Origin: Hydrogenovibrio halophilus DSM 15072 | GTDB lineage: Bacteria > Pseudomonadota > Gammaproteobacteria > Thiomicrospirales > Thiomicrospiraceae | Direction of reading: 5' to 3' | Assembly (NCBI RefSeq): GCF_000384235.1 | Contig: NZ_KB913033.1 | Span: 1,061,164 to 1,125,163 of the forward strand | DNA: 64,000 bases | Part shown: one piece after another, positions 5,522 to 64,000 of the stretch | Layout: each line of letters starts with the position of its first letter | How positions within the stretch are numbered: position 1 is the first letter of the stretch | The notes under the pieces: model-generated | Databases searched by the model: none | Seen by the model: the letters and a program-made list of their open reading frames with translations, nothing else | What the model was told of the DNA's origin: nothing | Position numbers and translations under genes: made by a program

Positions 5522-6436
5522 TTACCAGGCCTGGTGATTGTTAACTCGTTCCAACTGCCAGTGGTTTATGGCCCAGTCCCATAATTGGGTCAGGGTTTGA
5601 ATCTCGGACGGTGGCGGGTGATGCAGAAAGCGCAAGGCTTCGCTCAGTGTGGCCAGCGCCTGATCGGTTCGGATCGCCGGTGCCCGGCTTTTTTTGCTCA
5701 GTTTGATGCCTTCCGGGTTCGATGCCAGAGCGTGGTGGGCATAGCGTGGCGGAGTGTGCCCCAGGCTCTGCATGATCGCCAGCTGGGCAAAGCTGCTGGT
5801 GAGCAAATCCTCGCCCCGCACCACTTCGGTGACCTGCATGGCGATGTCGTCCACGGCGCAGGCCAGATGGTAGCCAAAAATGCCATCGGCGCGTTTGACC
5901 ACAAAATCGCCCAGCTCAGTCGGCACATCCAGTGATTGCGGCCCCTGAAGAACGTCGTCAAATGACAAGGTCTCCCGCTCCGGCCGAAAGCGCCAGGCGC
6001 TTTTTTCGGGGGTCATGGCCGTGGGGTCGGGTGCCACGGCCTGATGGCGGCAGAAGCCATCATACAGCCAGGGCGTCTGCGGCTGGCGCTGGCGCAACTG
6101 CTTGCGACTGCAGGCGCACACATACAGCCGTCCGTTGGAATTCAGCCTGGCCAGGGCCTGTCGGTAGGCGTCAAACCGTTCGGACTGATACACCACCGGC
6201 CCATCCCAGACAAAGCCATAGCCCCTCAGTTGACGCAGAATTTCTTCGCTGGCTCCGGTCACCACACGTGGGCCGTCCAGATCGTCGATGCGCAGCCGCC
6301 AGTGGCCATTCTGAGTCCGTGCGTTCAGGTAACTGGCCGTGGCCGCGATCAAAGAGCCGAAATGCAAAGGGCCGCTGGGTGTGGGCGCAAAACGCCCGAT
6401 GGGGCGGGTGGTGGTGTCGGGGGCAGAGGGCGTCAT
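5522..6436 (-). CDS. gluQ: Glutamyl-Q tRNA(Asp) synthetase
   Basis: A 304-residue protein resembling the catalytic half of glutamyl-tRNA synthetase without the anticodon-binding domain. It activates glutamate and attaches it to queuosine at the wobble position of tRNA-Asp. The class I signature is seen in PTPSGPLHFGSL, and the KMSKS-like loop is KLSKKSRA. A zinc site is suggested by the VCACSRK and DGFCRH segments. Length matches the family (about 300). The last codons and the stop are made of the dispersed palindrome (5524-5535), giving the ending H-Q-A-W-stop, so the C-terminus may have been reset by the repeat. Confidence 0.93.
   Translation of the reverse strand: MTPSAPDTTTRPIGRFAPTPSGPLHFGSLIAATASYLNARTQNGHWRLRIDDLDGPRVVTGASEEILRQLRGYGFVWDGPVVYQSERFDAYRQALARLNSNGRLYVCACSRKQLRQRQPQTPWLYDGFCRHQAVAPDPTAMTPEKSAWRFRPERETLSFDDVLQGPQSLDVPTELGDFVVKRADGIFGYHLACAVDDIAMQVTEVVRGEDLLTSSFAQLAIMQSLGHTPPRYAHHALASNPEGIKLSKKSRAPAIRTDQALATLSEALRFLHHPPPSEIQTLTQLWDWAINHWQLERVNNHQAW
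5524..5535. repeat. Dispersed palindrome ACCAGGCCTGGT
   Basis: A perfect copy with a T-run to its left. Its first base completes the gluQ stop codon on the minus strand, and it encodes Q-A-W before that stop. Confidence 0.9.
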
Positions 6437-6535
6437 GCGACTATCTTAGCGGAATTGGGGCCGATTTGAACAGAGGCGTTTGTTCCCGCCAGTGGCTGTG
6501 GCACAATAAACGAATGAAAAAGGAAGGAGGGCCAC

Positions 6536-7096
6536 ATGGGTTCGGAACAAGCCATGGCTGAGACACAATACTGGTTGACGGCCTTGTCATTGACGTCGTG
6601 GTGGGCCTGGGCTCTGTTGGCTCTGGCGCTGGGACTGAGCCTGCGCGGCCTGAAAACCCGCGTGGTGGCATTGTGGCAGTTGTCTGTCTGGCCTTTGCTG
6701 CTTCTGGTGGTGGCGGGGCAGCAATTGGCGGTGGCCGTGCCGGCCGAGATGACTGGCTCCTTTGGGTTATTGCTGGCGATGGCGCTGGCCTGGCTGTTGG
6801 GGTCGGCGGCGGGCATGTTGCTGGTGGCCCGCTTGTCCCTGCACATGGACCCGACCCATCGCCTGATTGAAATGCCGGGCAGCGCTTTTCGCCTGGGCGT
6901 GACCCTGCTGTTGCTCGGGTTCAAGCTGGTGTGGTCCTGGCAGTGGTGGTTGTCGCCGCTCAACGTGACCCAGCCCGGCCTGATCTGGGCCAGTGTGTTT
7001 TTTAATGTGACCCTGATGGGGTTGGTGTTTGGTTGGGCCATGACGTTTTATCTGCGCCTGCGCCATCTGCAAAAATATGGACCGGACGATGAATAA
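6536..7096 (+). CDS. Integral membrane protein of unknown function
   Basis: A 186-residue, strongly hydrophobic protein with about five predicted membrane helices and a short charged C-terminus (HLQKYGPDDE). No catalytic or transport motif is recognised. The ATG at 6536 is preceded by a strong AAGGAGGG at good spacing, which favours it over the in-frame ATG at 6554. Its end overlaps the start of the YaiI-type gene in ATGAATAA, so the two are probably translated together. The function is not known to me. Confidence 0.75.
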   Translation: MGSEQAMAETQYWLTALSLTSWWAWALLALALGLSLRGLKTRVVALWQLSVWPLLLLVVAGQQLAVAVPAEMTGSFGLLLAMALAWLLGSAAGMLLVARLSLHMDPTHRLIEMPGSAFRLGVTLLLLGFKLVWSWQWWLSPLNVTQPGLIWASVFFNVTLMGLVFGWAMTFYLRLRHLQKYGPDDE

Positions 7097-7556
7097 TACC
7101 ATTTGGGTGGACGCCGATGCCTGCCCGGCGGCGATGAAACAGATTCTGTTCAAGGCCGCAAAACGCACGCAGATTCCGGTGTGCCTGCTGGCCAATCACC
7201 CTCTGGCGGTGCCCAACAGCCATTACATTGATTTCATTCAGGTGCCACAGGGCATCGATGCGGCCGATCATGTGATTGTGCAGAAGGTTCGGGCGTCGGA
7301 TCTGGTGATCACGGCCGACATTCCATTGGCCTCGGAAGTGATTGCCAAAGGGGCGCTGGCGCTGAACCCGCGCGGTCAGCTTTATACCGAAGACAACATC
7401 GCCCAGCGTTTGCGGGTGCGCAATGAGTTGGAACAGTTACGCGCCAGTGGCATTCAGACCGGCGGTCCGCCGCCGCTGAACCAGAAAGACAAACAGACCT
7501 TTGCCAGCGCGTTGGAGAAATACCTGATCAAGGCATTGCGCGGGACAGGTGCCTAA
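7089..7556 (+). CDS. yaiI: YaiI/YqxD family (UPF0178) protein
   Basis: A 155-residue protein starting MNNTIWVDADACPAAMK. The VDADACP segment marks the UPF0178 family, which has a PIN-like/NYN-related fold with conserved acidic residues, so a nuclease role is suspected but not proven. Other family features are the segment VITADIPLA and the basic GGPPPLNQKDK near the C-terminus. The ATG at 7089 is preferred over an in-frame ATG at 7077 because family members begin directly before TIWVDADAC; it overlaps the upstream stop. It converges with the PEBP-like gene, with a 9-bp gap. Confidence 0.88.
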   Translation: MNNTIWVDADACPAAMKQILFKAAKRTQIPVCLLANHPLAVPNSHYIDFIQVPQGIDAADHVIVQKVRASDLVITADIPLASEVIAKGALALNPRGQLYTEDNIAQRLRVRNELEQLRASGIQTGGPPPLNQKDKQTFASALEKYLIKALRGTGA

Positions 7557-7565
7557 CGGACAACG

Positions 7566-8213: not shown

Positions 8214-9368
8214 TCAATTTCCCACCGAATGAAATCCCGGCAGCATCCACAGGTGACTGAACCAGCGAAACTGACCGTCGTCCGTCTGCTGGGTGCAGGC
8301 ATAGCGGTTGCGCGGCGGCGGGAGCGGGCGGGATTGCGTCATGGTGACGCTTTGGGCATAGTCCCAGTTCAAGGTCAGTGAATCGCCCTGTTGATTGAAG
8401 CATTGCAGGCGGTTCTGTTCGGCCTGGGTCATGGCGCTGTGAAAGGTCAGGGTCAGGCTGGGAGGGTTTTGTTCGACCAGGGTGTCGGCCGGCGTCAGGG
8501 TTTTGACCGGCAGGGGCCGGGTGTGGGTGATCAAACCAAAACGCTCCATGCCGCCAAACTCGGTATTGACCGGAAAGCGCAGCAAGGCCCCGCGATCGCT
8601 CTGGGCGTTGATGGCCCCGGAATGCTGGCTGACCCCGACATAGCCCATGTCCCGAATGGTCTGTTTCACGGCCAGCGAGTATTCGCCATAGGGATAGGCC
8701 AACAGCTTTGGCGGCGGTTCGGGCAGATGTTCCGTCAGCAGGGTCTGGGCGGTGTCGATGTCGTTTTTAAGGCGTTTTGACCAGGCCTGGTGGGTTTCGT
8801 CCGGGGTGCGCACCATGGTGTCGTGGGTATGACCGTGGTTGGCGATTTCAAAACCGGCGGCCTGCATTTCCGCCAGCTGCGCCCAGGTCATGTGCGAACG
8901 GTAATTTTGTTCAACCGGCTGGGTGTTGGCAAACACGGTCATGGCCCAGCCGCGCTTCTGCAAGGCCGGAAATGCGTAGGTGTAGACGCTGCGATAGGCG
9001 TCATCGGCGGTCAGGACCAGCGTTTTCTCCGGCAGAGCCTCCCCGTTTTCAAAGGCCTGGAGCACTTTGCCCAGAGTGCGCAGTTCAACCCCCTGCTCTT
9101 CCAGATAATCGAGCTGGCGTTCAAATTGCTCGGGGCGGATGCTGGTGCTGGCCGGCGTGTCGTCGGCAAAATGATGGTACACCAGCACCACCGCATGGGA
9201 TGAGCCATCGGTTTTGGCTGCGCCGGGGGATTCGGCCAATGGCGAAGACATGGCAAACAGCGCTGCCGGAGCCAGCCCTAACAGACTCAGTCCACAAAAA
9301 CGGAAAAACCGAAGGCTGAAAAAGCGGGTGACAAGACGTTTGAGCGAAAAAATCGTTGTGGTCGACAT
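8214..9368 (-). CDS. Polysaccharide deacetylase family protein
   Basis: A 384-residue exported protein with a hydrophobic N-terminus and a NodB-type deacetylase domain at about residues 60-280. Motifs seen are VLVYHHF near the domain start, LTADDAYRS (metal and catalytic Asp) and NHGHTHD (metal His), as in PgaB-like poly-N-acetylglucosamine deacetylases. A beta-rich C-terminal domain of about 100 residues follows. The ATG at 9368 has GGAGG seven bases upstream. It could edit a surface polysaccharide, fitting the neighbouring cyclic-di-GMP genes, though that link is inference. The dispersed palindrome at 8780-8791 encodes H-Q-A-W-S-K just after the NHGHTHD segment. Confidence 0.85.
   Translation of the reverse strand: MSTTTIFSLKRLVTRFFSLRFFRFCGLSLLGLAPAALFAMSSPLAESPGAAKTDGSSHAVVLVYHHFADDTPASTSIRPEQFERQLDYLEEQGVELRTLGKVLQAFENGEALPEKTLVLTADDAYRSVYTYAFPALQKRGWAMTVFANTQPVEQNYRSHMTWAQLAEMQAAGFEIANHGHTHDTMVRTPDETHQAWSKRLKNDIDTAQTLLTEHLPEPPPKLLAYPYGEYSLAVKQTIRDMGYVGVSQHSGAINAQSDRGALLRFPVNTEFGGMERFGLITHTRPLPVKTLTPADTLVEQNPPSLTLTFHSAMTQAEQNRLQCFNQQGDSLTLNWDYAQSVTMTQSRPLPPPRNRYACTQQTDDGQFRWFSHLWMLPGFHSVGN
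8780..8791. repeat. Dispersed palindrome ACCAGGCCTGGT
   Basis: A perfect copy within the deacetylase gene, preceded by TTTTG and read in frame as Q-A-W. Confidence 0.9.
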
Positions 9369-9491
9369 GGGGTCCTCCATGGATGGAGATCGGAGCAATT
9401 TCCGGGGCATGACAACTTCCCTGTTCATCCGTATGATATTGAATACTTTGAGTCCTTGGACTCACTTTATCAGGGTTGAAAGGAAAAAAGT

Positions 9492-10397: not shown

Positions 10398-10978
10398 AGC
10401 GCATGAACCCCGTCAATCCCATCAGCGTCGATCAGGCCGTTGCCCAACTCAAGGCCGGAAAGGTGGTGGCCTGTCCGACCGAATCGGTGTACGGCCTGGG
10501 TTGCGATCCGTTTGATCGTCAGGCCTTTGACCGCCTGTTGGCGCTCAAGCAGCGGCCTTTGGAAAAAGGCGTGATTCTGATTGCCGCCGATGTGGAGCAG
10601 GTCGCGGCGCTGACCTGCCTTTTTGACCAGGCCTGGTCAAAAACGGTGCTGCAAAGCTGGGAAAGGCCTTTGAAACCCGGACAAAGCGCCACCACCTGGA
10701 TTCTGCCAGCCAGTGACCGGGTGCCGGACTGGGTCACGGGCGGGCGCGAGACGCTGGCGGTACGGGTCAGTCAGCACCCGGTGGTACAGGCGCTGTGCCG
10801 GGGATTTGGCGGGGCGTTGGTCTCCACCAGCGCCAACCTGTCGGGCCAACCGCCGATTCGAGAACTCGAAACTCTGGCCGAAACCTTTCCACAAGTGGAT
10901 GTGGTGGCGGGGGAATTGGGTCAGGCCGAACAGCCCTCTCAAATCTGGTGTGCCCAGAGCCTGACCCGGTTGCGCTGA
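10394..10978 (+). CDS. tsaC: Threonylcarbamoyl-AMP synthase
   Basis: A 194-residue YrdC/Sua5 family enzyme. It makes threonylcarbamoyl-AMP from threonine, bicarbonate and ATP for the t6A37 modification of ANN-decoding tRNAs. Family landmarks are VVACPTESVYGLGCDP, LALKQRP..KGVILIA, LAVRVSQHPVVQALC and LVSTSANLSGQPP. The start overlaps the glycosylase stop (ATGA). A perfect dispersed palindrome (10626-10637) encodes F-D-Q-A-W-S-K at about residues 77-83. In E. coli TsaC this stretch is a poorly conserved linker, and the protein here is only slightly longer, so the repeat appears accommodated in a surface loop. Confidence 0.93.
   Translation: MKRMNPVNPISVDQAVAQLKAGKVVACPTESVYGLGCDPFDRQAFDRLLALKQRPLEKGVILIAADVEQVAALTCLFDQAWSKTVLQSWERPLKPGQSATTWILPASDRVPDWVTGGRETLAVRVSQHPVVQALCRGFGGALVSTSANLSGQPPIRELETLAETFPQVDVVAGELGQAEQPSQIWCAQSLTRLR
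10626..10637. repeat. Dispersed palindrome ACCAGGCCTGGT with TTTT/AAAA flanks
   Basis: A perfect copy flanked by TTTTG on the left and CAAAA on the right, so the full palindrome spans about 22 bp (10621-10642). It is read in tsaC as F-D-Q-A-W-S-K. Confidence 0.92.
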
Positions 10979-14374: not shown

Positions 14375-16060
14375 GTGAGCGTGAGTCATGCACCCCCTTC
14401 TTCCGACATGATTGCAGAGCACTTGCATCAAGCGTTGTGCGCTCACACGGTGCTGTTTCGTTGTTTTGACCAGGCCTGGTCAAAAAACCGGTTGTTGGCT
14501 CTGGCCCATCAGGTGGCGCAGGCGCTTCCGGACAATATGGCGGTGATCAATCTGGCACAGCATCGCCCGACCTTTTTTGTGACGCTGCTGGCCGCGGCCC
14601 TGAAAAAAGTGCCCGTGGTTTTGCCGCCCAATACGGCGCCCGAGACTTTGAGCACACTGGCGCAGACACTGGCGGACACGCACGGTCTGAACACGCTGAC
14701 GGTGGAGGACGACCGTTTTGCGCCGGTGATGTCTACGCAGCCGGGGGCCGCAAGCCTGACCCGAAAACAGGCCGAAAGCGTGTTGGCGCAGGAAATCTGG
14801 CTGTATACCTCCGGTTCGACCGGGCAGCCCAAACGGGTGGTGAAAACCTGGGGCCAGATGCTGACGCTGGCCCGCCAGGCGCTGGTCAATCTGCCCGGGA
14901 CTGATGCCGAAACGACGCTGGTGGCGACGGTGCCCAGCCAGCATATGTTTGGTCTGGAAACCACGGTTTTCTGGCCGTTCGTGTCGCAGTGGCAGGTCTG
15001 GGCGGACCAGCCGTTTTTTGCCGAAGACATTGCCGAGCGGATGCAGCAAACCGCTTGCACAAGCTGGCTGGTGTCGACCCCGCTGCATTTAAGCAAGCTG
15101 GCGCAGTTTGATACGGTATGGCCGACGGCGTTTGAGCGGGTCCTTTCCGCCACCGCGCCTTTGACTCAGACGCTGGCCGATCAGGTGAGCCGCCGCTTTG
15201 GCGTCCGCGTCTGCGAAGTGTATGGCAGCACCGAAACCGCCTCCATTGCCTGGCGTGAGCGCGAACGGGAAGCTCCCTGGCGTTTGTATGACGGCAATCG
15301 GTTGCAGCCACAGGCCGAAGGCATGACGGTGGAGATCGGTCCTTTGCAGGCCTCCTTTGTTTTGCAGGATCGTCTGCAGTCGCTGGATGCGCATCATTTT
15401 GCGTGGCTTGGGCGGGAGCAGGACCTGGTGAAAGTGGCCGGAAAACGCACCTCTCTGGCGTACCTCAATGAGCGCCTGAAGGCGCTGGACGGGGTCAGGG
15501 ACGGCGTGTTTCTGCTGCCTTCGGTCGGTGAACGCCTGACGGCGCTGGTGGTCTCAGATCGGTCGGCGTCGGAAATCAAGCAGGCGCTGGCCAGGAGCCT
15601 GGATCCGGTGTTTGTGCCGCGCCCTCTGCTGAAAGTGGCCAGCCTGCCCCGCAATGAATTGGGAAAAATTCAATATGAGCGTCTGAAAGCACAGGTGAAT
15701 GCGCTGATGTCAGATAAAGATGACGAAAATCCGCTGTCCTGGTCGTTTGCCATTTCGGCCGGGCATCCGGCGATGCCGGGGCATTTTCCGGGGCATCCGG
15801 TGGTGCCGGGCGCACTGTTGCTGGCGCAGGTGGAAAAATATCTGGTCCGTGAATGGCCGCAGGGCTTTCTGGCCGAGGTGCCGGAAACCAAATTTCTGCA
15901 AACCGTGTTGCCGGACACCACGGTCACTGTCACGCTGACGGCGGAAAACCGGGAAACCCATCGCGTGGGCCGATTTGAAATGGTGCTGGCAGACACGGGC
16001 CGACCCTGTGTTCGCGGCAGACTGATCTGGCAGTGCCACTCACCGGTTCACCCACTATGA
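14375..16060 (+). CDS. Adenylation (AMP-ligase) - dehydratase fusion
   Basis: A 561-residue fusion. Residues ~20-445 form an AMP-binding acyl/aryl ligase with the P-loop-like YTSGSTGQPKRVVKTW near residue 145 and the EVYGSTE motif later. Residues ~455-555 form a hot-dog dehydratase with HPAMPGHFPGHPVVPG near 463, like FabA/FabZ or ApeI. In aryl polyene pathways the ligase (ApeH-like) loads the aromatic starter on ACP and ApeI-like dehydratase removes water in each cycle; here both are one polypeptide. The start is GTG at 14375. The palindrome at 14469-14480 encodes C-F-D-Q-A-W-S-K near residues 30-37, before the catalytic core. Confidence 0.85.
   Translation: MSVSHAPPSSDMIAEHLHQALCAHTVLFRCFDQAWSKNRLLALAHQVAQALPDNMAVINLAQHRPTFFVTLLAAALKKVPVVLPPNTAPETLSTLAQTLADTHGLNTLTVEDDRFAPVMSTQPGAASLTRKQAESVLAQEIWLYTSGSTGQPKRVVKTWGQMLTLARQALVNLPGTDAETTLVATVPSQHMFGLETTVFWPFVSQWQVWADQPFFAEDIAERMQQTACTSWLVSTPLHLSKLAQFDTVWPTAFERVLSATAPLTQTLADQVSRRFGVRVCEVYGSTETASIAWREREREAPWRLYDGNRLQPQAEGMTVEIGPLQASFVLQDRLQSLDAHHFAWLGREQDLVKVAGKRTSLAYLNERLKALDGVRDGVFLLPSVGERLTALVVSDRSASEIKQALARSLDPVFVPRPLLKVASLPRNELGKIQYERLKAQVNALMSDKDDENPLSWSFAISAGHPAMPGHFPGHPVVPGALLLAQVEKYLVREWPQGFLAEVPETKFLQTVLPDTTVTVTLTAENRETHRVGRFEMVLADTGRPCVRGRLIWQCHSPVHPL
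14469..14480. repeat. Dispersed palindrome ACCAGGCCTGGT with TTTT/AAAA flanks
   Basis: A perfect copy with TTTTG on the left and CAAAA on the right, near the 5' end of the ligase-dehydratase gene, read F-D-Q-A-W-S-K. Confidence 0.92.
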
Positions 16061-17005: not shown

Positions 17006-17598
17006 GTTGTTTGCGACGATGGGTCACATCCATTTCGGGCTTGGTGTTTGGGCTGCTTTGGGTGAGCTCTGTGTTCAGTGAGGCACCCAACTCCCTGACG
17101 GGATTGCTCGCGCATTGGCCGGAACCGAACGACGTTACCGCATTTGAAGAAATCCGTTATGATCATCTGCTGGACCTCTCTACCCGCTATCAGGGAGAAT
17201 TGCGTTATCAGGGAGCCGATTGGGTATCGATGCATTACCATGCGCCAGTGGAAGGTTTCTGGCAATTGAAAAACGGCCAGTTTGAACTGGTGTTTCCGGG
17301 TCAGTCGCTGTCACGACCTCTGGCTCAGATGCCGGAAGTTGCGGCCATGATTCGCCCTATGCAATTTTTGCTCTCCGGTCAGTTGGAAGCGGTCAGGCAA
17401 GACTTTGACGTCAGCTACACCGACATGGCAGAAACGACGCGCTGGCAACTGCTTCTGACGGCAAAAACCGTTCTGACCACCGGCCCGCGCCGAATCACCA
17501 TCCACGGTCACTGGCCTGAGGGGGCACCGCCCCGGGTGACGACTGTGCGGATCGACATGACCAGCGGGGACTGGCGCAAGCTGGTGCTGAACCCATGA
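17002..17598 (+). CDS. LolA-like lipoprotein carrier protein
   Basis: A 198-residue exported protein with a signal-peptide-like N-terminus (WVTSISGLVFGLLWVSSVF). The rest resembles the LolA/LolB fold: a beta-rich core with RYQGELRYQGADWVSMHY and GQFELVFPG. In aryl polyene clusters a LolA-like protein is encoded beside the MMPL exporter and is thought to shuttle the hydrophobic product across the periplasm. The GTG start overlaps the acyltransferase stop by 4 bp, and the gene overlaps the MMPL gene by 4 bp, so translation is coupled on both sides. The assignment rests on context and weak similarity. Confidence 0.7.
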   Translation: MSCLRRWVTSISGLVFGLLWVSSVFSEAPNSLTGLLAHWPEPNDVTAFEEIRYDHLLDLSTRYQGELRYQGADWVSMHYHAPVEGFWQLKNGQFELVFPGQSLSRPLAQMPEVAAMIRPMQFLLSGQLEAVRQDFDVSYTDMAETTRWQLLLTAKTVLTTGPRRITIHGHWPEGAPPRVTTVRIDMTSGDWRKLVLNP

Positions 17599-19862
17599 CC
17601 ACGCGCCTGAGCCGACGCCGTTGGCTGGGCGCTTTGCTCTGGGTCGGGTTTCTGGGGCTCTGGGCCTTGATCAGTTTGCCGTCGCTCAGTCTGCACACGC
17701 ATTTCAGTGGGTTCTTTCCCCAGCCAAGCGATCCGGCGCAAGCCACCAAGTGGTCGGCGCTGTCGCATTTGGCGGAAGCGAGTTCTGAGCCTGGGCCCCT
17801 GATGGTGTCGATACGTTTGCCTGACAGTGTGTCCGCTCAGGCTGCCGCGAAATTGAGCCGTCACATTGCGACCCCGAAAAATCACCAGGCCTGGTTAAAA
17901 TCGGTTCAGAACCGGCTACAACCCTTGTCAGACTGGCTGGATCATCCCTTGCGCGAACAGCGCTTTCTGCTGACCGACTTTCACCCGGAAATGTTGACGG
18001 CGTCGCTGGAAACCCTCTGGCAGCGCTGGCAGGCCGGTTTTGTGCTCAACAAGCCTCTGGCCCTGTCGGACCCGCAAAACCAATGGCTTTCGTATCTGCA
18101 GCAGGGCCTGTCCACGCCTTCGTTGGCCGTGGACGCTGGCGTGTGGCAAATCACAAGCGGAGAGGCGCGCCAACTGTTGCTGTTGTTGACAGTCAGCAAA
18201 GACGGGATCGATCAGGTCCAGCCCTGGTTGAGGCAGGCGGTTTCCCGGCATCTGTCGCCTCGGCAGGCGGAAAAAACCGAGGTGCGCGTTTCCAATGCGG
18301 CCTGGATTGCCCAGCAGGCACAAGCCGGGATTCAGCAACGGGTGCAATGGGTGTCCCTGACGGCGCTGACATTGATTTTCGGATTTCTGCTGGCGGTGTT
18401 TCGCCGAGGTCGCCCACTTGTGGCGACGCTGTTGCCTGTGGCCAGTGCGGTGCTGGTCGGGCTGTTGGCAGTCAATGCCGTGTTTGCCCAGGTGTCGATG
18501 CTGACGCTGGCGTTTGGCATGGTGCTGGTCGGGGTCAGTATGGATTACCCTTTGCATTTGTGGGCCGCGGCCAAACGGGGCCATGTCCGCCATGCCCGGC
18601 GCCTGGTCGCCATCGGCGGCGTGACCTCGGTGTTGGGCTTTGCCGCGCTCTGGTGGACGGCCGTTCCGGGCATACAGCAAATCGCGGTGTTCAGCGCCGC
18701 CGGACTGGTGGCCGCCTTGATCACCAGCTTCCTGAGCGTACCTTCGGCATCGAACGCGTCCAATCCCCCGCTGATATGGCCAGCCCGGAATCGCAAGCGT
18801 CTGGTGCTGGGCACACTGGCGCTGGCAGGGATCTGGGGCACATTGCTGGCGCTGCCCACCGTCTGGCAAGACGATTTGCGCAGCATGAGCCCGGTCCCTG
18901 AATCCCTGTTGCAGCAGGATGGACAGCTTCGATCCGCGTTCCATTTGCCGGAAGCGGCGGCGTTTTTATTGGTGACGGCCGATACCACCGAAGACCTGTT
19001 GCAAAAACAGGAAAGCCTGCAACCGGGGTTGGCGCGATTGCAAGCCGATCAGGCCTTGCAGGGTCGGACCATGCTGGCCGACTGGTTGCCCAGCCAGCAG
19101 CGCCAGCGACAACGCCAAAACGCCTTGCCCGATGCGTCGTCCCTGCAGCAGGCCTGGTCAAAAGCGGACACGCCGTTCAAGCCCCATCATGCCCAAGGCC
19201 TGATTCAGGCAATCGACCGCAGTCGACAAATGCCAGCGCTCACGCTTGAGCGCTTTCGGTCATTGGCCCTACCCTGGCAGAAAGTCATGCTGGACAAGCT
19301 CCATTGGCAGGCGGGCGACAGGCATTTCGGGGTGATTCTGGTGCAGGACGCGAAAGCGGAGGCGCTGCAAAGCTGGGCGCAAACGCAGTCCGACGTGCTG
19401 TGGGTGCAACAGAGCACATTGGTGAGCGAACAATTGACCCATTTGCGCGAACAGTTGCTGGTCGGTTTGCTGGCGCTGGTGGCCGCGATGTTATTGGGGT
19501 TGAGCCTGTATTGGCGTTCTTTTTACCAGGCCTGGTCACTTTTGCTGCCAATCGGGCTGGGTCTGGGCCTGGCCTGGGTGGGATTGTCGCTGTTGGGGCC
19601 CGTCAGTGTGTTTCACCTCATGGCCAGTCTGCTGGTGGTGGCGATTGGCGTGGATTACAGCCTGTTTCTGAATCAGGCGCAAACCGATCCCACTCAGCGC
19701 TTTTCGGTGCATGTGACCCTGACCACCAGCCTGATCGCGTTTGGCGGGTTGTTGTTCACCGACGTTGCCCTGCTGATGTCGATGGGCCTGAGCGTGGTGC
19801 TGGGGGTGCTTTTGACCTATGTCAGCGCCCGACTGCTGTTCAGCGCGCGTCCATCATCGTGA
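17595..19862 (+). CDS. MMPL/RND-type exporter
   Basis: A 755-residue inner-membrane protein with the MMPL layout: one N-terminal helix, a periplasmic domain, five helices (about 250-395), a second periplasmic domain and a final helix group (about 620-750). GVSMDYPLHLW and GVDYSLFLNQ are the paired Asp-containing transmembrane motifs used for proton coupling. It should export the polyene or its lipid form. Three copies of the dispersed palindrome lie in this one gene, two perfect (17884, 19525) and one with a mismatch (19147), giving H-Q-A-W-L-K, Y-Q-A-W-S and Q-Q-A-W-S-K. It overlaps the convergent flavoprotein gene by 23 bp. Confidence 0.88.
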   Translation: MTTRLSRRRWLGALLWVGFLGLWALISLPSLSLHTHFSGFFPQPSDPAQATKWSALSHLAEASSEPGPLMVSIRLPDSVSAQAAAKLSRHIATPKNHQAWLKSVQNRLQPLSDWLDHPLREQRFLLTDFHPEMLTASLETLWQRWQAGFVLNKPLALSDPQNQWLSYLQQGLSTPSLAVDAGVWQITSGEARQLLLLLTVSKDGIDQVQPWLRQAVSRHLSPRQAEKTEVRVSNAAWIAQQAQAGIQQRVQWVSLTALTLIFGFLLAVFRRGRPLVATLLPVASAVLVGLLAVNAVFAQVSMLTLAFGMVLVGVSMDYPLHLWAAAKRGHVRHARRLVAIGGVTSVLGFAALWWTAVPGIQQIAVFSAAGLVAALITSFLSVPSASNASNPPLIWPARNRKRLVLGTLALAGIWGTLLALPTVWQDDLRSMSPVPESLLQQDGQLRSAFHLPEAAAFLLVTADTTEDLLQKQESLQPGLARLQADQALQGRTMLADWLPSQQRQRQRQNALPDASSLQQAWSKADTPFKPHHAQGLIQAIDRSRQMPALTLERFRSLALPWQKVMLDKLHWQAGDRHFGVILVQDAKAEALQSWAQTQSDVLWVQQSTLVSEQLTHLREQLLVGLLALVAAMLLGLSLYWRSFYQAWSLLLPIGLGLGLAWVGLSLLGPVSVFHLMASLLVVAIGVDYSLFLNQAQTDPTQRFSVHVTLTTSLIAFGGLLFTDVALLMSMGLSVVLGVLLTYVSARLLFSARPSS
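17884..17895. repeat. Dispersed palindrome ACCAGGCCTGGT
   Basis: A perfect copy in the first periplasmic domain of the MMPL protein, followed by TAAAA and read H-Q-A-W-L-K. Confidence 0.9.
19147..19158. repeat. Dispersed palindrome, one mismatch
   Basis: AGCAGGCCTGGT followed by CAAAA in the second periplasmic domain of the MMPL protein, read Q-A-W-S-K like the perfect copies. Probably a decayed member. Confidence 0.6.
19525..19536. repeat. Dispersed palindrome ACCAGGCCTGGT
   Basis: A perfect copy preceded by TTTTT in the loop between C-terminal helices of the MMPL protein, read Y-Q-A-W-S. Confidence 0.9.
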
Positions 19863-21190: not shown

Positions 21191-22192
21191 ATGCCCGATT
21201 CCTATGCCATTGAGGTGCAGGCGCTCAGTTATGATTACCCGCGAAAACGTGATGCACTGGTGGACGTGTCGTTTGACCTGGTGAAAGGTCAGGCGTTGGG
21301 GTTGCTGGGGGTCAATGGCGCGGGCAAAAGCACCTTGATCCAGTGTCTGACCGGGCAGTTGCGACCCACGTCGGGAGACGTTGCCATAATGGGCCAGCGT
21401 TTTGACACGTCACGCCAAGGCATTCTGTCGCAATTGGCGCTGGTACCCCAGGGCGAAGCGTTTTATCCTCGGTTGACGGTGAGTGAAAACCTGCGGTTTT
21501 TTGCCCGTTTGCGCCCGGACCTGCCCGACTTCAATGAACGGGTGAATGAATCCCTTGATGTGTGTCAGCTGAACAATCAGCAAACGGTTCTGGCGGCGCG
21601 CCTGTCCGGTGGCTTAAAACGGCGTTTGAATCTGGCCATCGGTTTGGTCAACCGCCCTAGCCTGTTGCTGTTGGACGAGCCGACGGTGGGCATTGATCCG
21701 ATTTCGAAGGACGCGATTCTGGGGGTATTGGAATCGCTGAAAACCAAAGGCATGACTCTGGTGTACACCTCGCATCAGTTGGCGGAAGTGGAACGGCTGT
21801 GCGATCAGCTGGTGGTATTGGATCGGGGAAAAACCGTGTTTCAAGGCACGGTGGCGGCTTTGACCAAGGCGCAGGGGCACAGGTTTGAAGCCAGAATCAA
21901 CCAGGCCTGGTCAAAAGTGACCCGCAAGCGCCCCGAAATCGCCAAATGGTTGCAACAATGGTCTTTGCAGACGCAGGACGGATGGGTGCAGGGGCAGTTG
22001 CCAGCCGAGTGCGATCTTGCGGCTTTCACGGGCAGATTTTTGCAACAGCTTCAAGCTTGCCCGGAGGTGATTCTACAGCAACACAGTGTCCAACCTTTGA
22101 GCATGGAAGCGGCGTTTTTTGAATTGTTGGGCGAATCGCATACGGCGCTGGCCCAATGCCTGATCCATGAGTCGGAGTCAAGTCATGTTTAA
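21191..22192 (+). CDS. ABC transporter ATP-binding protein
   Basis: A 333-residue ATPase: Walker A in LGVNGAGKSTLI, ABC signature LSGGLKRRLNLA, Walker B LLLLDEPTVGID and the switch His in YTSHQLAEVE. A C-terminal extension of about 100 residues follows the nucleotide-binding domain. It pairs with the overlapping permease gene, forming an ABC-2 type exporter. Flexirubin-type clusters carry such an exporter. The start at 21191 is chosen because the upstream frame to 21134 lacks conserved sequence; an AGGACG precedes at modest strength. A perfect palindrome (21900-21911) encodes N-Q-A-W-S-K in the extension, outside the ATPase core. Confidence 0.87.
   Translation: MPDSYAIEVQALSYDYPRKRDALVDVSFDLVKGQALGLLGVNGAGKSTLIQCLTGQLRPTSGDVAIMGQRFDTSRQGILSQLALVPQGEAFYPRLTVSENLRFFARLRPDLPDFNERVNESLDVCQLNNQQTVLAARLSGGLKRRLNLAIGLVNRPSLLLLDEPTVGIDPISKDAILGVLESLKTKGMTLVYTSHQLAEVERLCDQLVVLDRGKTVFQGTVAALTKAQGHRFEARINQAWSKVTRKRPEIAKWLQQWSLQTQDGWVQGQLPAECDLAAFTGRFLQQLQACPEVILQQHSVQPLSMEAAFFELLGESHTALAQCLIHESESSHV
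21900..21911. repeat. Dispersed palindrome ACCAGGCCTGGT
   Basis: A perfect copy followed by CAAAA, in the C-terminal extension of the ABC ATPase, read N-Q-A-W-S-K. Confidence 0.9.
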
Positions 22193-23408: not shown

Positions 23409-23411
23409 ATG

Positions 23412-23423
23412 ACCAGGCCTGGT
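23412..23423. repeat. Dispersed palindrome between convergent genes
   Basis: A perfect copy, extended to ATGACCAGGCCTGGTCAT, in the 33-bp gap between the ABC permease and the BtrH-like gene, where it could act as a terminator for both strands. Confidence 0.9.
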
Positions 23424-23441
23424 CATTTTGGTGTTCTGCGG

Positions 23442-27048: not shown

Positions 27049-27801
27049 TTATTTGCTCGGATCATAGACATTCGGGCGTTTGTAGAGTGATTTCACCAGG
27101 CCTGGTAAAAAGAACCCTTTTCGAACGAGTTTGCCAGCCACCATCAGGGTGATATGGCTGATGTCAAAACCGGGGCGGAAATGGCTGGCCCGCCGGGTTT
27201 CCGGGTAATGAGAGGCAATGGGCACAAACACCAGATCATAGCCTTTTTGCGCGGCATTGATCAGCACTTCGCTTTCAAACACAAATCCGGACGGGCCTTT
27301 ATGATCGTAATCCAGCTGGCGCAACAGGCTGGCCGGATACAACCGAAACCCGGACTGAGAGTCGGCAATGGGTTTGCCGGCGGCCCAGCTCACCCAGAAA
27401 TCGGCTATTTTATTGGCAACCTGACGGGCACGAGGGGCGTTTTCCCGATTGGTCAATCTCGCCGCAATCACAAAGTGCTCCGGGAAGCGGTCGAAGGCCT
27501 GGTTCAAAAGCGGAATATTGGCCGGATCATGCTGGCCGTCGCCGTCCAGTGTGATCACCCGTTCGTAGCCCTGCTCCAGGGCATATTGAAAACCGGTCAA
27601 CAGAGCCTGAGCCTTACCGGCATTTTGTGGGTGTTCCAACAGGGTCACCCGGGTTTTTCGTACGCATTCTGCTGTGTCGTCCTCACTGGCATCATTGACC
27701 ACGATGACCGACGAGGTCTGAGCCAGCGCCTGATCAATCACGGTCTCAATCGTAGCCGCTTCATTATAGGCCGGGATCACAATGCAAAAAGAAGCAGACA
27801 T
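27049..27801 (-). CDS. Family 2 glycosyltransferase
   Basis: A 250-residue GT2 protein with a GT-A fold: VIPAYNEAATIETV at the start, VVNDASEDDT, and the metal-binding DGDGQHDP segment, as in dolichol-phosphate-mannose-synthase-like enzymes. A DSQSGFRLYP acceptor segment follows. No large membrane domain is present. Aryl polyene clusters often contain a GT2, perhaps acting on the lipid acceptor. The sequence near the C-terminus carries a perfect palindrome (27095-27106), read L-P-G-L-V-K-S, within the last 25 residues. The gap to darA is 71 bp. Confidence 0.85.
   Translation of the reverse strand: MSASFCIVIPAYNEAATIETVIDQALAQTSSVIVVNDASEDDTAECVRKTRVTLLEHPQNAGKAQALLTGFQYALEQGYERVITLDGDGQHDPANIPLLNQAFDRFPEHFVIAARLTNRENAPRARQVANKIADFWVSWAAGKPIADSQSGFRLYPASLLRQLDYDHKGPSGFVFESEVLINAAQKGYDLVFVPIASHYPETRRASHFRPGFDISHITLMVAGKLVRKGFFLPGLVKSLYKRPNVYDPSK
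27095..27106. repeat. Dispersed palindrome ACCAGGCCTGGT
   Basis: A perfect copy followed by AAAAA near the 3' end of the GT2 gene, read on the minus strand as L-P-G-L-V-K. Confidence 0.9.
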
Positions 27802-43278: not shown

Positions 43279-43308
43279 CCCGTTTTCACCAAGCCTGGTG
43301 AAAACGGG
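43279..43308. terminator. Palindrome-derived bidirectional terminator
   Basis: A one-mismatch palindrome copy (ACCAAGCCTGGT, 43288-43299) extended by CCGTTTTC on the left and GAAAACGG on the right, giving a 13-bp arm between the convergent rhodanese and RND genes. A hairpin is likely; the T-rich flank on either strand could permit termination. Confidence 0.55.
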
Positions 43309-48537: not shown

Positions 48538-49650
48538 TCAAGTTCGTGGTTTAGGTTGGGCCGGTTGCAGTTGTCCGTTTTCAATGGTCCAGGCTTGCAC
48601 GTCGTTTCCGCTGCGGGCGCTGTCGGGGATCAGGTTGAGGCTGGTGGTGGTCAGGAGCGATTGTATGCCCAGTTCCTGCAGCAGATTCAGCAGGGTGAGG
48701 CGGTGGTGGGCGTCCAGTTCGGCGGGCAGGTCGTCAATGAGCATGATCACTGTCTGCCCGCTTTGCTGCTCATACAATGCCGCTTGTGCCAGCAGCAGGG
48801 CGCAGACAAACAGTTTCTGCTGACCGCGTGACAGGGCCATCTGGGCGTCCATTTTGTCAAAACGGAAACGGATGTCGGCGCGATGGGCACCGTATTGGGT
48901 AAACCCTTGTTTGAGGTCTTTGTCCAGATGCGAGGTCAGGGCCTGTTCAAAATCGGGTTGCGCCTGGGGCCAGCCCGGACGGAAACTGACACTGGGCGGG
49001 GCGCTGAGCTCCGGCATCAGAGCGCGGCAATAGGTTTCCAGAAACGGGGTCAGGTCATGGAGGTAGGTCTGGCGCAGGGCGTGGAGCTGTTGGTTGGCGG
49101 CGATCAGTTGCGCGTCCCAGAGTTGCACCTGATCCGCTGGCAATTGTTGGCGCAGGGCCCGGTTGCGTTGTTTGAGCGCACGCTGATACAACCGCCAGTG
49201 CTGCATGAAGTCGGTTTGGGCATGAAAGCAGCCCCAGTCCAGATAATGGCGTCGGGCTTTGGGGCCTTCTTCCAGCAGCCGGTGGCTTTCCGGGGTGAGC
49301 AGCTGAACCGGGAGGGTGGCGGCCATCTGCGCCTGAGTACGGACGTTTTCGCCGTTCATGCGCACACTGAGTTGCCCGTCCAGCTGGCGGCTGAGCCCCA
49401 GACGGTGACGGTGTTCGCCCTGCTCGACTTCACAGAAAATGACCAGGCCTGGTTGCTGGTGCCGGATCAACTGGCGTGGTTGGGCGGTGCGAAACGAGCG
49501 CCCGGAAGCCAGTGCCCACAGGGCTTCGATCACCGCGGTTTTGCCCGCGGCATTGTCCCCGGCAAGCAGATTGATGCCGGGACCGAAGCTCAGGCTGGCC
49601 TGTTCGATGTTGCGGAATTGTTGCAGTTGAAGTTGAACCAGTCGGGACAA
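48538..49650 (-). CDS. recF: DNA replication and repair protein RecF
   Basis: A 370-residue SMC-like ATPase: Walker A in LLAGDNAAGKTAVIEAL, signature near LSRGQQKLFVCALLLAQ and Walker B in MLIDDLPAELD. It helps load RecA at gaps through RecOR. It reads in the dnaA-dnaN-recF order, 18 bp after dnaN. A perfect palindrome (49442-49453) encodes Q-P-G-L-V-I near residue 67, in the peripheral part of the N-terminal lobe, where family sequences vary. The neighbour downstream is a toxin-antitoxin pair rather than gyrB. Confidence 0.96.
   Translation of the reverse strand: MSRLVQLQLQQFRNIEQASLSFGPGINLLAGDNAAGKTAVIEALWALASGRSFRTAQPRQLIRHQQPGLVIFCEVEQGEHRHRLGLSRQLDGQLSVRMNGENVRTQAQMAATLPVQLLTPESHRLLEEGPKARRHYLDWGCFHAQTDFMQHWRLYQRALKQRNRALRQQLPADQVQLWDAQLIAANQQLHALRQTYLHDLTPFLETYCRALMPELSAPPSVSFRPGWPQAQPDFEQALTSHLDKDLKQGFTQYGAHRADIRFRFDKMDAQMALSRGQQKLFVCALLLAQAALYEQQSGQTVIMLIDDLPAELDAHHRLTLLNLLQELGIQSLLTTTSLNLIPDSARSGNDVQAWTIENGQLQPAQPKPRT
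49442..49453. repeat. Dispersed palindrome ACCAGGCCTGGT
   Basis: A perfect copy inside recF, read Q-P-G-L-V on the minus strand. Confidence 0.9.
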
Positions 49651-57520: not shown

Positions 57521-57645
57521 TCTATGAATGCAAAGCGCTGCTTAGACAGGAAGCTTAAGCTCGAAGCGTCCATGTTTTTCATTCATTGCGAGATGAAACA
57601 GACATAATACCAGGCGTTATATTCACAGTTTAGAAGAGATTGCCA

Positions 57646-59643
57646 ATGACCACGGATAACGTGCACGTGAACGGTGCCCAGGTTCAAGCCATGGAAGACG
57701 CACTGACCGCAGCGATCGCAAAATTGCAGCATGCCACCGGTTTTGCCAAAGTGACTCATCAGTCAGAGGTGCTGGAAATGGCGGCTTGGGTGATGCAGCA
57801 ACCCGAAGGGGTGCCGGCACTTTATCGGCTGGCACCGGCTATGGATGCAGCGGGCCTGTTTGAAGGAACGGACTGGGCAGAGCCGGAGCGATTGCAACCA
57901 GGCCTGGTGGTCAGTACCTTGCAGACAGGGGCCAAAGAGACGGTGGTGCTGGATGCGTTAAGCCATCTGCGATTGCTGGCCATTGTTGAAGGCGTGCATC
58001 GTCACCCAGGCATCTCTGCCGAGCAGGCCGAGAAGTTCCTGACGCAGGTGTTGGCACTCAACGTCAACCAGCTGTTTGGCGCAGCAGATGAAACGATGCG
58101 TGTGCGTTTGGGCGATCTGGGTGCGGTCGTCAATCAGGTATTTCAGTTTTTGTTGAGTCACATCGGCTTTGAGAACATTCTGGGGCGTTTGATCGATGAA
58201 ATATGGCGCATTCTTGCTCAGCGCCCCATTCAAACCGCGCACATCAAGATGATGGTGACGCAAGTTTCCATTACTCTGGCGCAGGGCGCAGGGGATATTG
58301 GCGAAGTCCGGCTGGGGGCCGACCGCTTGACCAGCGCGTTGTTTGGGCCAACCCAAGGCTGTCTTGACGATCCGGGGATTGAGGCTTACCTGGGACGTCT
58401 GGCGTCCATGGATTTGCCAAGCCTGCAGCAGGAAGCCAGTGGCTTTGCCCGGGCCATGCACGATGTGGGTCTGGTGTCGGATTACCATGCCATCTTTTTG
58501 CGCTTTGCATTGCAAAATGATCGCCAACTCATTGCCGATGCGCTTGGCCTCAGCAGCACCGGGATGGATGCGATTCGCAGTTATCAGGCTCTGGTTTACC
58601 AGCTGATCGATGAAGCGATTTATCCGGAAACGGCACAGGCCGTTTATGGTCTGGCCATGCTGCTGGAGCGGGGCATTCTCTATTCGTCTCCGATTGCGCC
58701 GGCTCTTTGGCGCCAGATTGGGCTGGAGTTGAGCGAGCCGACAAGCCGCCTCTTGAAATCCGTGTTTGGCGAGGCAAAACCTCCGCGTGTGCATCTGCTG
58801 GCCGGGGTGGTTTCGCTGATTGGTCAGCCCCTGGGGGTTGGACAGGGCAATAACCCAACCTGTCAGTCGGCACGTGCCATCTCAATGTGGTCCTATAATG
58901 ACCCGGATTATTTGTTGCACTTGATTGCCCAGGCGGCTCGGTTTGATGGTCTGTCCATGCATTTTGAAGGCAGGCTGATTGCCTCGGCGGAATTGGCCGA
59001 TCACTCGGGGCCAATGCTGTCACTGGACACCGATCCGGTCTCCGTTGTTTTGGTGCCCCATCTTGATCGTGTGTACAACGAAATGGGACGCCTGTGTATT
59101 GGGCGGGGCGAAGATCCGCATCGTTGGATCAATCCCGAATTTCATGGCTGGTGGGTCGGGCGCGAATTCTGGATTGCGGTCGACATCGCCACCGGTCAAC
59201 TGTGTGATTATCACCAATACCTCAGCGCGTTCTATACTTATTATCATCCCTACTACAATGGCAACCAGCCGCTGATACACCCTCAGCCAGCGGGGATTGC
59301 GATCACCGACAGCAGCGCCCGATTTGTGGGCTGGCACGCCATCACCCTCATTCGGGTGTCGTTGGATCAGGAAGAAGTCATGCGTGTGTATTTCTTTAAC
59401 CCGAACAATGACAGCGGACAGGACTGGGGCAATGGCGTGATGGTGTCTACCCAGGGACATGGCGAGCGTTTCGGTGAAGCTTCTTTGCCTTTTGCGCAAC
59501 TGGCTTCGCGCTTATACATTTTTCATGCGGATCCTTCGGTGGTCCACAGCCAGCTGGCCCCCCCTGATGAAGAGATTCAACAAATCAAAGCCCTGGCCGT
59601 AAACAGTTGGGCGGCGGATCGCACTTCGGTTGAGGGGGGCTAG
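57646..59643 (+). CDS. Large papain-like cysteine-peptidase protein
   Basis: A 665-residue protein I cannot place in a named family. The C-terminal 280 residues look like a papain/transglutaminase-fold domain: Cys406 in NNPTCQSARAISMWSY, His564 in FVGWHAITLIRVSL and Asn585 in YFFNPNNDSGQDWG would make a Cys-His-Asn triad. The N-terminal 400 residues are mostly helical, with no motif that I recognise. No signal peptide is seen. A perfect palindrome (57897-57908) encodes Q-P-G-L-V-V near residue 85. The ATG at 57646 is used. It follows the ATP-grasp gene after a hairpin and may be part of the same system. Confidence 0.7.
   Translation: MTTDNVHVNGAQVQAMEDALTAAIAKLQHATGFAKVTHQSEVLEMAAWVMQQPEGVPALYRLAPAMDAAGLFEGTDWAEPERLQPGLVVSTLQTGAKETVVLDALSHLRLLAIVEGVHRHPGISAEQAEKFLTQVLALNVNQLFGAADETMRVRLGDLGAVVNQVFQFLLSHIGFENILGRLIDEIWRILAQRPIQTAHIKMMVTQVSITLAQGAGDIGEVRLGADRLTSALFGPTQGCLDDPGIEAYLGRLASMDLPSLQQEASGFARAMHDVGLVSDYHAIFLRFALQNDRQLIADALGLSSTGMDAIRSYQALVYQLIDEAIYPETAQAVYGLAMLLERGILYSSPIAPALWRQIGLELSEPTSRLLKSVFGEAKPPRVHLLAGVVSLIGQPLGVGQGNNPTCQSARAISMWSYNDPDYLLHLIAQAARFDGLSMHFEGRLIASAELADHSGPMLSLDTDPVSVVLVPHLDRVYNEMGRLCIGRGEDPHRWINPEFHGWWVGREFWIAVDIATGQLCDYHQYLSAFYTYYHPYYNGNQPLIHPQPAGIAITDSSARFVGWHAITLIRVSLDQEEVMRVYFFNPNNDSGQDWGNGVMVSTQGHGERFGEASLPFAQLASRLYIFHADPSVVHSQLAPPDEEIQQIKALAVNSWAADRTSVEGG
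57897..57908. repeat. Dispersed palindrome ACCAGGCCTGGT
   Basis: A perfect copy in the N-terminal region of the cysteine-peptidase-like gene, read Q-P-G-L-V-V, without the usual A/T-run flanks. Confidence 0.88.
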
Positions 59644-59714
59644 ATTTTATTATGGTTCTGAGTGGGTTGAATGGTTCGAACACACCCCTGAGAGCCAAGC
59701 CAGGATGAAAAATC

Positions 59715-59726
59715 ACCAGGCCTGGT
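59715..59726. repeat. Dispersed palindrome ACCAGGCCTGGT
   Basis: A perfect copy extended to ATCACCAGGCCTGGTGAT, 72 bp after the cysteine-peptidase-like gene and just upstream of the rpmH promoter; it may end transcription from the left. Confidence 0.9.
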
Positions 59727-59735
59727 GATAAAGTC

Positions 59736-62566: not shown

Positions 62567-62593
62567 GCATGAGCCTGGCCAAGCGCATTGATC

Positions 62594-62616
62594 AACGCCC
62601 GTTACGGGCGTTTTTT
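62594..62616 (+). terminator. Rho-independent terminator before mnmE
   Basis: AACGCCCG / CGGGCGTT stem with a three-base loop followed by a T-run, 27 bp after the small gene. It ends the rpmH-yidC unit. Confidence 0.85.
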
Positions 62617-62639
62617 GTCTCTGTCACCGGCGGTCCGGC

Positions 62640-64000
62640 ATGAGCGATCCCCTGTTTATGTCCGCTCAGACCGAGACCATCGCCGCTCTGGCCACGCCGC
62701 CGGGTCGCGGTGGGGTCGGCATTGTCCGGGTCTCGGGCCCGCAAAGCCGTGCCATTGCCCAGGCCATGCTGGGGCAGTGTCCGCCACCACGCTATGCTCA
62801 TTTCGGCCCTTTTTACGGCAAAGACGGCACGGTGCTGGATCAAGGCATCGCACTGTTCTTTGAAGGCCCGCATTCGTTTACCGGCGAAGACGTGATCGAA
62901 TTTCAGGGCCACGGCGGCCCGGTGGTGATGCAGTGGCTGTTGAATCGGGCCGTGACACTGGGCGCACGTCTGGCCGATCCGGGCGAGTTTTCCCAACAGG
63001 CGTTTTTGAATGACAAGCTGGATCTGGCTCAAGCCGAAGCCATTGCCGATCTGATCGATGCCAGCTCGGATCAGGCCGCGCGTTCGGCCCTACGCTCGCT
63101 GCAGGGCGAATTTTCCAACCGCATTCACACCCTGGTGGAGCAGTTGATCGCCCTGCGCATTTATGTGGAAGCCGCGATCGATTTCCCCGACGAGGAAATC
63201 GACTTTTTGAGCGACGGCAAGGTCGCGGCCGATCTGGCCGAAATCGAATCACAGTTGGCTTTCGTGCTGGCCAGTGCCCGTCAGGGTGCGATGCTGCGCG
63301 AAGGGCTGTCGGTGGTGATACTGGGACGGCCCAATGCGGGCAAATCCAGTCTGCTCAATGCCTTGTCGGGCCGCGAATCGGCGATTGTGACCGACATTGC
63401 CGGCACCACGCGCGACATTGTTAAAGAAGAAATTGTGATCGATGGCCTGCCATTGCATGTGCTCGACACCGCCGGGCTGCGCGAGGCCACCGATGCGGTG
63501 GAGAAAATCGGGATCGAGCGCGCCTGGGCGGCACTGGATCAGGCCGACCACGTGCTGGTGATGGTTCAGGGCGGGGAGGCGATGGCCGAAGAAGACCGTC
63601 GCATTCTGGCGCAACTGCCGCGCGGCATGCCGGTGACCCTGATCCACAATAAGATCGATCTGATGGAACAATCACCAGGCCTGGTCAAAAATGACGCCTC
63701 GGAACAGGCGCAAAGCGGTGTCGAAACCGAAATCTGGCTCTCGGCCAAACACGGGATCGGTCTGGACCTGCTCACCGCACATTTAAAAGACCGGATGGGC
63801 CTGCTCCAGACCAGCGAAGGCGTGGTCATGGCCCGAGAACGCCATTTGCAGGCCCTGCAGGCCGCGCAAAGCCATCTGGAACAGGGCCGGGTGCAATTGC
63901 ACGATTTCGCCGCCGGCGAACTGCTGGCCGAAGACCTGCGTCAGGCTCAACAGGCGCTGTCGTCCATCACCGGCGAATTCACCTCCGACGACCTGCTGGG
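62640..64000 (+). CDS. mnmE: tRNA modification GTPase MnmE, truncated by window edge
   Basis: The visible 453 residues of a protein usually about 450-455 long lack the end. The start matches the family ([22 protein letters not shown]), the GTPase has [19 protein letters not shown] and DTAGLR, and the N-terminal tetrahydrofolate-binding part precedes it. With MnmG it makes 5-carboxymethylaminomethyl at wobble uridine 34. The palindrome at 63674-63685 encodes S-P-G-L-V-K, between the NKID motif and the SAK motif of the GTPase, in a loop that varies in the family. Confidence 0.95.
63674..63685. repeat. Dispersed palindrome ACCAGGCCTGGT
   Basis: A perfect copy followed by CAAAA in mnmE, read S-P-G-L-V-K in frame, lying between G4 and G5 motifs. 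Confidence 0.9.

Follow-up and report, generated by a model that had tools for sequence, protein, structure and literature searches.

The window analysed here is a stretch of 64,000 nucleotides from the chromosome of Hydrogenovibrio halophilus DSM 15072 (contig NZ_KB913033.1, positions 1,061,164 to 1,125,163), and it is studded with the 12-bp palindrome ACCAGGCCTGGT. The original prediction, made from the letters of the window, had listed 17 perfect copies and four with one mismatch, and all of them are found at the positions given; dinucleotide-shuffled versions of the window contain 0.13 perfect copies on average and 2 at most. The palindrome extends far beyond the window. The single chromosome of this organism (2,356,686 bp, GC content 56%) contains 515 perfect copies against 0.21 expected from base composition, and no copy of a reversed control pattern, which upholds the claimed overabundance (several thousand-fold in the window) at about 2,400-fold genome-wide. 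Moreover, the palindrome is a family-wide trait of the Thiomicrospiraceae with dialects, one of them non-palindromic, a dimension that the original prediction had not seen.

The Palindrome in the Window

Counted over about 22 bp (the positions of the 12-bp core follow in brackets, and no strand is assigned), many copies lie within genes. Those at 8775-8796 (8780-8791) and 10621-10642 (10626-10637) are located in a polysaccharide deacetylase-like open reading frame (ORF; 8214-9428, minus strand) and in a Sua5/YciO/YrdC-family gene, respectively, and both are intact in the relative G005, the former despite different flanks there. The site at 14464-14485 (14469-14480) lies in ORF 14375-16060 (plus strand), and those at 17879-17900 (17884-17895) and 19520-19541 (19525-19536) share ORF 17595-19862 (plus strand). 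Further copies are found within an ABC-transporter ATPase gene (21895-21916; core 21900-21911), a recF-like gene at 48538-49650 on the minus strand (49437-49458; core 49442-49453; intact in G005), ORF 57640-59643 on the plus strand (57892-57913; core 57897-57908) and a ChaN-family gene (41504-41525; core 41509-41520), the last being, among the perfect copies that can be aligned, the sole one not preserved intact in G005. The site at 5519-5540 (5524-5535) occupies the 3' end of an ORF of the tRNA-synt_1c family, and that at 47602-47623 (47607-47618) lies close to where an RND adaptor gene begins. Two copies fall between convergent genes or ORFs (23407-23428, core 23412-23423; 59710-59731, core 59715-59726). 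The site at 36807-36828 (36812-36823) lies just past the 3' end of a phosphoribulokinase/uridine kinase-family gene (36842-37777, minus strand) and the one at 37894-37915 (37899-37910) downstream of gyrB; both are intact in G005, as is the copy at 63669-63690 (63674-63685). At 27090-27111 (27095-27106), the 8-bp core CAGGCCTG is kept in the aligned sequences of G002 and G010, and the outer bases differ. The one-mismatch copies are ACCAGGTCTGGT (390-401), AGCAGGCCTGGT (19147-19158 and 34171-34182) and ACCAAGCCTGGT (43288-43299, in a longer hairpin), the first and last of which face perfect copies in G005. A search of the window against Rfam returned no known RNA.

Anatomy of the Site

A logo of 48 copies reads [AT][AT][AT]T N ACCAGGCCTGGT N A[AT][AT][AT], and little common sequence is found outside these approximately 22 bp. 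The A/T tracts are centred 9-11 bp from the centre of the palindrome on both sides, or about one helical turn away. The original prediction had placed TTTT to the left and AAAA to the right: the extension to about 22 bp holds, but the strict polarity does not, because both flanks are A/T-rich and either base may fill them, T being preferred at -2 and A at +2. Copies lying 90 bp or more within long ORFs show 73-81% A/T at the three best flank positions against a background of 40%, and the strength of the intragenic flanks nearly equals that of copies between genes. Being present deep inside genes, the A/T flanks are part of the motif and not just the tails of terminators.

Dialects across the Family

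We surveyed 59 Thiomicrospiraceae genomes, labelled here by G-numbers of which G000 is the window genome and the others are relatives. Counts of ACCAGGCCTGGT range from 0 in some Hydrogenovibrio to 93-515 in others; in the rest of the family they reach 660, and genomes from outside the family but within the class show at most 1. The core CAGGCCTG reaches 400-1,133 copies in about 60% of the 59 genomes (reversed controls, 0-36), and occurs once per 2.8 kb where control 8-mers of similar composition occur once per 31-56 kb. In logos drawn for each genome, mostly from samples of 40-150 kb, the core is constant and the outer bases drift between species. Position -1 is C in most genomes, C or G in Thiomicrospira cyclica ALM1 (G016; complete, 1,932,455 bp; PMC4891895) and its relatives, and often A in G022 and G026; position -2 is A in H. 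halophilus and A, G or C in Hydrogenovibrio crunogenus SP-41 (G009; 2,453,259 bp; PMC6501319), G002 and G010. The A/T flanks are present in Hydrogenovibrio (genus g1), in g4 and in most of g3, which is probably Thiomicrorhabdus, and absent in Thiomicrospira (g6). One genome, G032, has 1,025 copies of a different palindrome, ACCGGCCGGT, of which its relatives in the family have 0-14; on a gyrB tree, it sits with this new motif inside a motif-free clade (G064, G069, G059, G013 and G019). A search for other frequent motifs in the motif-free genomes G065, G059, G019, G069, G064 and G017 yielded none comparable. Genome G030 has only 74 core copies (control 20) among clade-mates with 650-900, and was possibly caught while losing or switching its motif.

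A Hydrogenovibrio clade consisting of G004, G001 and G011 contains merely 9-14 copies of the palindrome core and carries instead the asymmetric 19-mer AAAATCTRCCAGGYTGGGG. Here, Y is T in G001 and G011 (338 and 287 exact 15-mer cores, respectively, counting both strands) and C in G004, so a single C/T base separates the sister groups across all sampled copies. Left-hand positions beyond the 10-base search seed are mostly more than 90% conserved, so the 19-mer is real. The left half corresponds to the H. crunogenus half-site (AAAAAY..CCAGG), whereas the right half is no longer symmetric, and at one locus amenable to alignment, a palindrome in G009 faces an asymmetric site in G011. The gyrB tree nests the asymmetric clade among palindrome carriers. 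Near the ends of genes, asymmetric copies occur as inverted pairs. In G001 (contig C1, 1-20000), a tandem array of units of about 36 bp (cgccgcccgaaggggtaaggcgagaaacgaagcact) near base 213 stands beside an asymmetric site, and G004 harbours two long direct-repeat arrays of 26-28 copies that are CRISPR-like in appearance.

A viral origin of the palindrome was considered and rejected, as just 7 IMG/VR contigs contain TTTTNACCAGGCCTGGT, with 1 copy each, which by our estimate is about chance level for a collection that large. A literature search that left most subscription journals outside its coverage turned up neither the 12-mer nor the 8-mer, and no earlier report.

Distribution along Genomes

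As had been claimed for the window, copies occur in genes as well as between them: of 500 sampled sites, 345 (about 69%) are located in ORFs as defined by naive longest-ORF calls, and density is 0.91 per kb between ORFs and 0.19 per kb within them, a difference of about 5-fold. Intragenic copies favour two of the three reading frames.

The original prediction had suggested looking for even spacing and for origin-terminus and strand bias. The first 100 copies of the H. halophilus chromosome are spaced more evenly than random (coefficient of variation 0.73, P 0.0002), with 5 gaps below 1 kb where 17 are expected. Even spacing is also seen in G005, and the pooled Hydrogenovibrio genomes are again more evenly spaced than random (P ~0.005) and avoid short gaps; in the Thiomicrorhabdus-like g3 and the Thiomicrospira g6 genomes, in contrast, spacing is random. 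Neither bias reached significance. In H. halophilus, the interval 0-517 kb holds 100 of the 515 copies (P 0.18), at 7-12 per 50 kb, and in the asymmetric dialect, which unlike the palindromic 12-mer can be oriented, plus-strand copies number 72/127 in one half (P 0.16). A polar motif of the Chi/KOPS type would be expected to show such an orientation bias between replichores. A helical-period signal was sought in the spacing of sites and not found.

Four Thiomicrospira genomes differ from carriers in other genera: in G016, G023, G031 and G056, all 77 of 77 core copies fall within called ORFs. Among the Thiomicrospira genomes without PilT, 0 of 68 copies are intergenic, versus 9 of 33 in G027 and G033, which possess PilT (P 2e-5); this contrast was spotted post hoc, and G031, which also has PilT, shows 0 of 9.

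Maintenance and Turnover

Between H. halophilus and G005 (80% identity), 11 of 13 core sites have stayed intact, as opposed to 19% of GC-matched 8-mers (P 5e-7). The corresponding figures are 5 of 5 against a null of 9% for G003 and G006, and 20 of 22 against 66% for G002 and G010 (94% identity, P 0.007). At about 80% identity, conservation thus exceeds the matched null with P values of 1e-5 to 1e-7, yet most sites have been replaced at 70-73% identity, and nearly all orthologous ones across 65-75%. Copies are thus actively kept, and at the same time gained and lost over longer times.

The window also contains a block of about 21 kb (13214-34184) with acyl-carrier-protein synthase, AMP-ligase-like and HAE3-like transporter genes, which by inference is aryl-polyene-like. 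It is absent at this locus in the close relative G005. The portion of it at 26-27 kb, however, can be aligned with G002 and G010, and the palindrome is as dense in the block as is normal, so the block looks ancestral and lost in G005. Further along, between 38014 and 52423, gyrB stands apart from dnaA-, dnaN- and recF-like genes, with an RND efflux operon intervening together with further genes, an arrangement that departs from the common dnaA-dnaN-recF-gyrB order.

What Might the Palindrome Be For?

How might such a sequence come to occupy hundreds of loci and change its form at all of them? We tentatively favour, with a probability of about 0.42, the idea of a sequence, shared across the family, by which cells recognise self-DNA and which uptake-like molecular drive has spread; the palindrome would be its local dialect. 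We envision a scenario whereby a receptor, conceivably a minor pilin or another DNA-binding protein of the envelope, prefers the 22-bp site, such that DNA bearing it would be favoured in import and homologous recombination. Molecular drive might then accumulate and restore copies wherever a gene tolerates them, and once the specificity of the receptor drifted, the same drive would rewrite all copies and give rise to dialects. We rank this explanation first because the rewriting of hundreds of sites as specificity changes, loss of dyad symmetry included, is the work of molecular drive in the DNA uptake sequences (DUS) and uptake signal sequences (USS) of other bacteria. Further points in its favour are the A/T tracts beside the core, as in USS, the inverted pairs at the ends of genes, as in DUS, the conservation of copies in permissive places, as in both, and the even spacing in H. 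halophilus itself. PilT and PilU are present in H. halophilus, and ComEC is found in 55 of the 59 genomes (in H. halophilus as an open frame of 881 aa), although its presence in motif-free genomes renders it non-discriminating. Pilin-like genes occur in 14 of 14 genomes searched.

A number of observations weigh against uptake-like drive. PilT (TIGR01420 above cut-off) was not found in G002, G010, G016, G023, G056 and G060, all of which have 840-1,128 core copies, and the motif-free genomes G059, G019, G013 and G065 possess it; motif-free relatives have ComEC as well. These absences weaken a simple DUS-like model, which would be rescued only if PilT had been lost recently, as is possible for G002 and G010 given their 94% identity, or if uptake were independent of PilT. 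The exclusively intragenic location of sites in several Thiomicrospira would be unusual for DUS, and random spacing in g3 and g6 does not help either. In a literature with few subscription journals covered, we found no report of natural transformation or competence in these genera, we know of no palindromic uptake sequence, and our search for a receptor of the 22-bp site did not find one. Because we infer receptor, competence and uptake alike, and because the PilT test went the wrong way, our confidence is no higher than stated.

In the six genomes in question, of which that of T. cyclica is complete, PilU seems to be missing along with PilT, and ComEC is kept. FimT/GspH was tried as a candidate receptor and rejected: PF12019 matched only 3 genomes, all motif-free, and the one locus inspected, in G019, is a type II secretion cluster. 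Most other genomes searched have a type II secretion pseudopilin cluster, but none was found in G000, G004 and G011. Around the pilin-like cluster of H. halophilus, non-coding repeats that translate as strings of the CHPERSRRI or VILSEAEGSPK type occur several times (L335:2494-3069, L026:2061-2769). A gene with weak likeness to Y1/IS200-type transposases (356 aa, ~G000:143483-144553, L027:833-1903) adjoins the pilin-like genes and holds one copy of the palindrome.

A broader formulation, possible though on balance doubtful, is that of a genome-wide signature system that is neither based on methylation nor in need of retractile type IV pili. The sites would then belong to a putative binding or drive system of the Thiomicrospiraceae, with a target that shifts from palindromic to asymmetric and back, hundreds of loci being rewritten whenever the specificity of the system changes.

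The main rival to uptake-like drive, in our judgement unlikely, is a chromosome-wide DNA-binding protein, whether nucleoid-associated, condensin-loading or insulating, that needs a site every few kilobases. Two subunits would each read a half-site and touch the A/T minor grooves one turn away, an architecture that suits the dyad symmetry and the bilateral tracts 9-11 bp from the centre. The avoidance of gaps below 1 kb and the even spacing in H. halophilus and G005 also fit, as do the conservation of sites in genomes devoid of PilT (the 20 of 22 in G002 and G010) and the lack of dependence on the methyltransferases searched for. Such a protein would, however, have to accommodate random spacing in other genera, the lack of origin or terminus bias, the replacement of nearly all orthologous sites at 65-75% identity and the absence of the motif from whole lineages. 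Selection acting on each site separately would find it hard to rewrite them, and since asymmetric sites would hold no advantage for a homodimer, an en-bloc move to the 19-mer is difficult to explain; we therefore rank a structural protein below drive.

Methylation was the first mechanism examined, since two CCWGG sites, AGGCCT and GGCC are all embedded in ACCAGGCCTGGT. A solitary methyltransferase acting on the internal AGGCCT or GGCC might, together with methyl-directed repair, make and keep sites as a by-product, as proposed for the highly iterated palindromes (HIPs) of cyanobacteria. The original prediction had drawn the likeness to HIP1, and it persists in abundance, palindromy and the presence of copies in and between genes; the occurrence of ACCGGCCGGT as another palindrome in one relative is in keeping with it. 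C5 methyltransferases (PF00145) are absent from G000, G005, G014 and all sampled Thiomicrospira, and N4/N6 methyltransferases of PF01555 from G000 and most high-copy genomes, PF02384, PF02086 and PF07669 having not been searched. A HIP1-type model consequently fits poorly, leaves the A/T flanks and the asymmetric dialects unexplained, and appears quite improbable to us; the methylation role listed by the original prediction is disfavoured with it. Dcm/Vsr repair on the embedded CCWGG sites was rejected, there being no C5 methyltransferase in H. halophilus.

Still less probable is a dispersed repeat of the REP/RAYT type (repetitive extragenic palindrome and its associated tyrosine transposase) or a family of transcription terminators. 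Intergenic enrichment, the hairpins formed by many copies (for example, AAAACGCCCAGGCCTGGGCGTTTTT) and the weak Y1-transposase-like gene speak for it, but the roughly 69% of sampled copies in called ORFs largely refute it, no longer element surrounds the common 22 bp or so, and the flanks are no different in copies far within genes. We give the least credence of all to neutral context-dependent mutation or a codon or peptide bias favouring CAGGCCTG, for although intragenic copies prefer two reading frames, copies are also intergenic and palindromic to at least 12 bp, 8-mers of like composition are far rarer, and the mutational bias once entertained for the window is at odds with a specificity of 12-22 bp, the A/T flanks, conservation above the null and the even spacing in Hydrogenovibrio. 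DNA uptake and protein binding, the other two roles listed by the original prediction, are the readings ranked highest here.

Comparison with Known Systems

To our knowledge, sequence-specific DNA uptake has been established in only two bacterial families. If uptake-like drive were true, the Thiomicrospiraceae would represent a third independent origin and the first with a palindromic signal, and the series from palindrome to half-palindrome to one-base change would show how a whole-genome signal is rewritten. If not, the palindrome would mark a new chromosome-wide recognition system in sulfur oxidisers that live freely and can be cultivated. In both cases, the old question of drive versus selection for iterated sequences becomes directly testable, because gains, losses and dialects occur among close relatives.

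The sites of Noc, SlmA, MatP and ParB are dyads of 12-16 bp, present in tens per chromosome and confined to or excluded from macrodomains. The palindrome is likewise a dyad site spread over the chromosome, but it differs in its hundreds of copies, in showing no regional bias and in the switching of dialects.

Cyanobacterial HIPs are palindromes that are replaced by others in relatives and are tied to methyltransferases for sites embedded in them (PMC4390886). With HIP1, the palindrome shares high iteration, a location inside genes and the occurrence of other palindromes in some relatives (PMC4390886). The sequence of HIP1, however, is GCGATCGC, and asymmetric dialects are not part of its description. 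As the methyltransferase was sought in two classes and not found, we do not file the palindrome as a HIP.

The USS of Pasteurellaceae have A/T-rich segments next to the core (PMC1626085) and two subclade dialects (PMC1626085, PMC12616744). A short core with A/T segments about one helical turn apart, dialects, and abundance in and between genes are common to both (PMC1626085, PMC12616744). USS are one-sided and asymmetric, whereas the palindrome bears A/T tracts on both sides; the asymmetric Hydrogenovibrio clade, with an A tract on one side only, is the exception.

In the DUS of Neisseriaceae, sister lineages one base apart across their copies are a known dialect pattern (PMC3630211), and inverted pairs at gene ends act as terminators (PMC2397512). 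Hundreds to thousands of short copies, a constant core with dialects and single-base changes recur here (PMC3630211, PMC2397512), as do conserved sites in permissive places of the core genome and inverted pairs. Unlike the dialects of Thiomicrospiraceae, which are mostly palindromic and about 22 bp long, DUS are non-palindromic, 10-12 bp in length and devoid of A/T flanks; the receptor ComP and uptake itself have been demonstrated for DUS only, and some carriers in the present family are without PilT. We refrain from filing the palindrome as a DUS or USS because PilT, an expected component, was looked for and not found in several carriers and it takes an uptake experiment to define the class. 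In its distribution and evolution, the palindrome nevertheless behaves like an uptake sequence.

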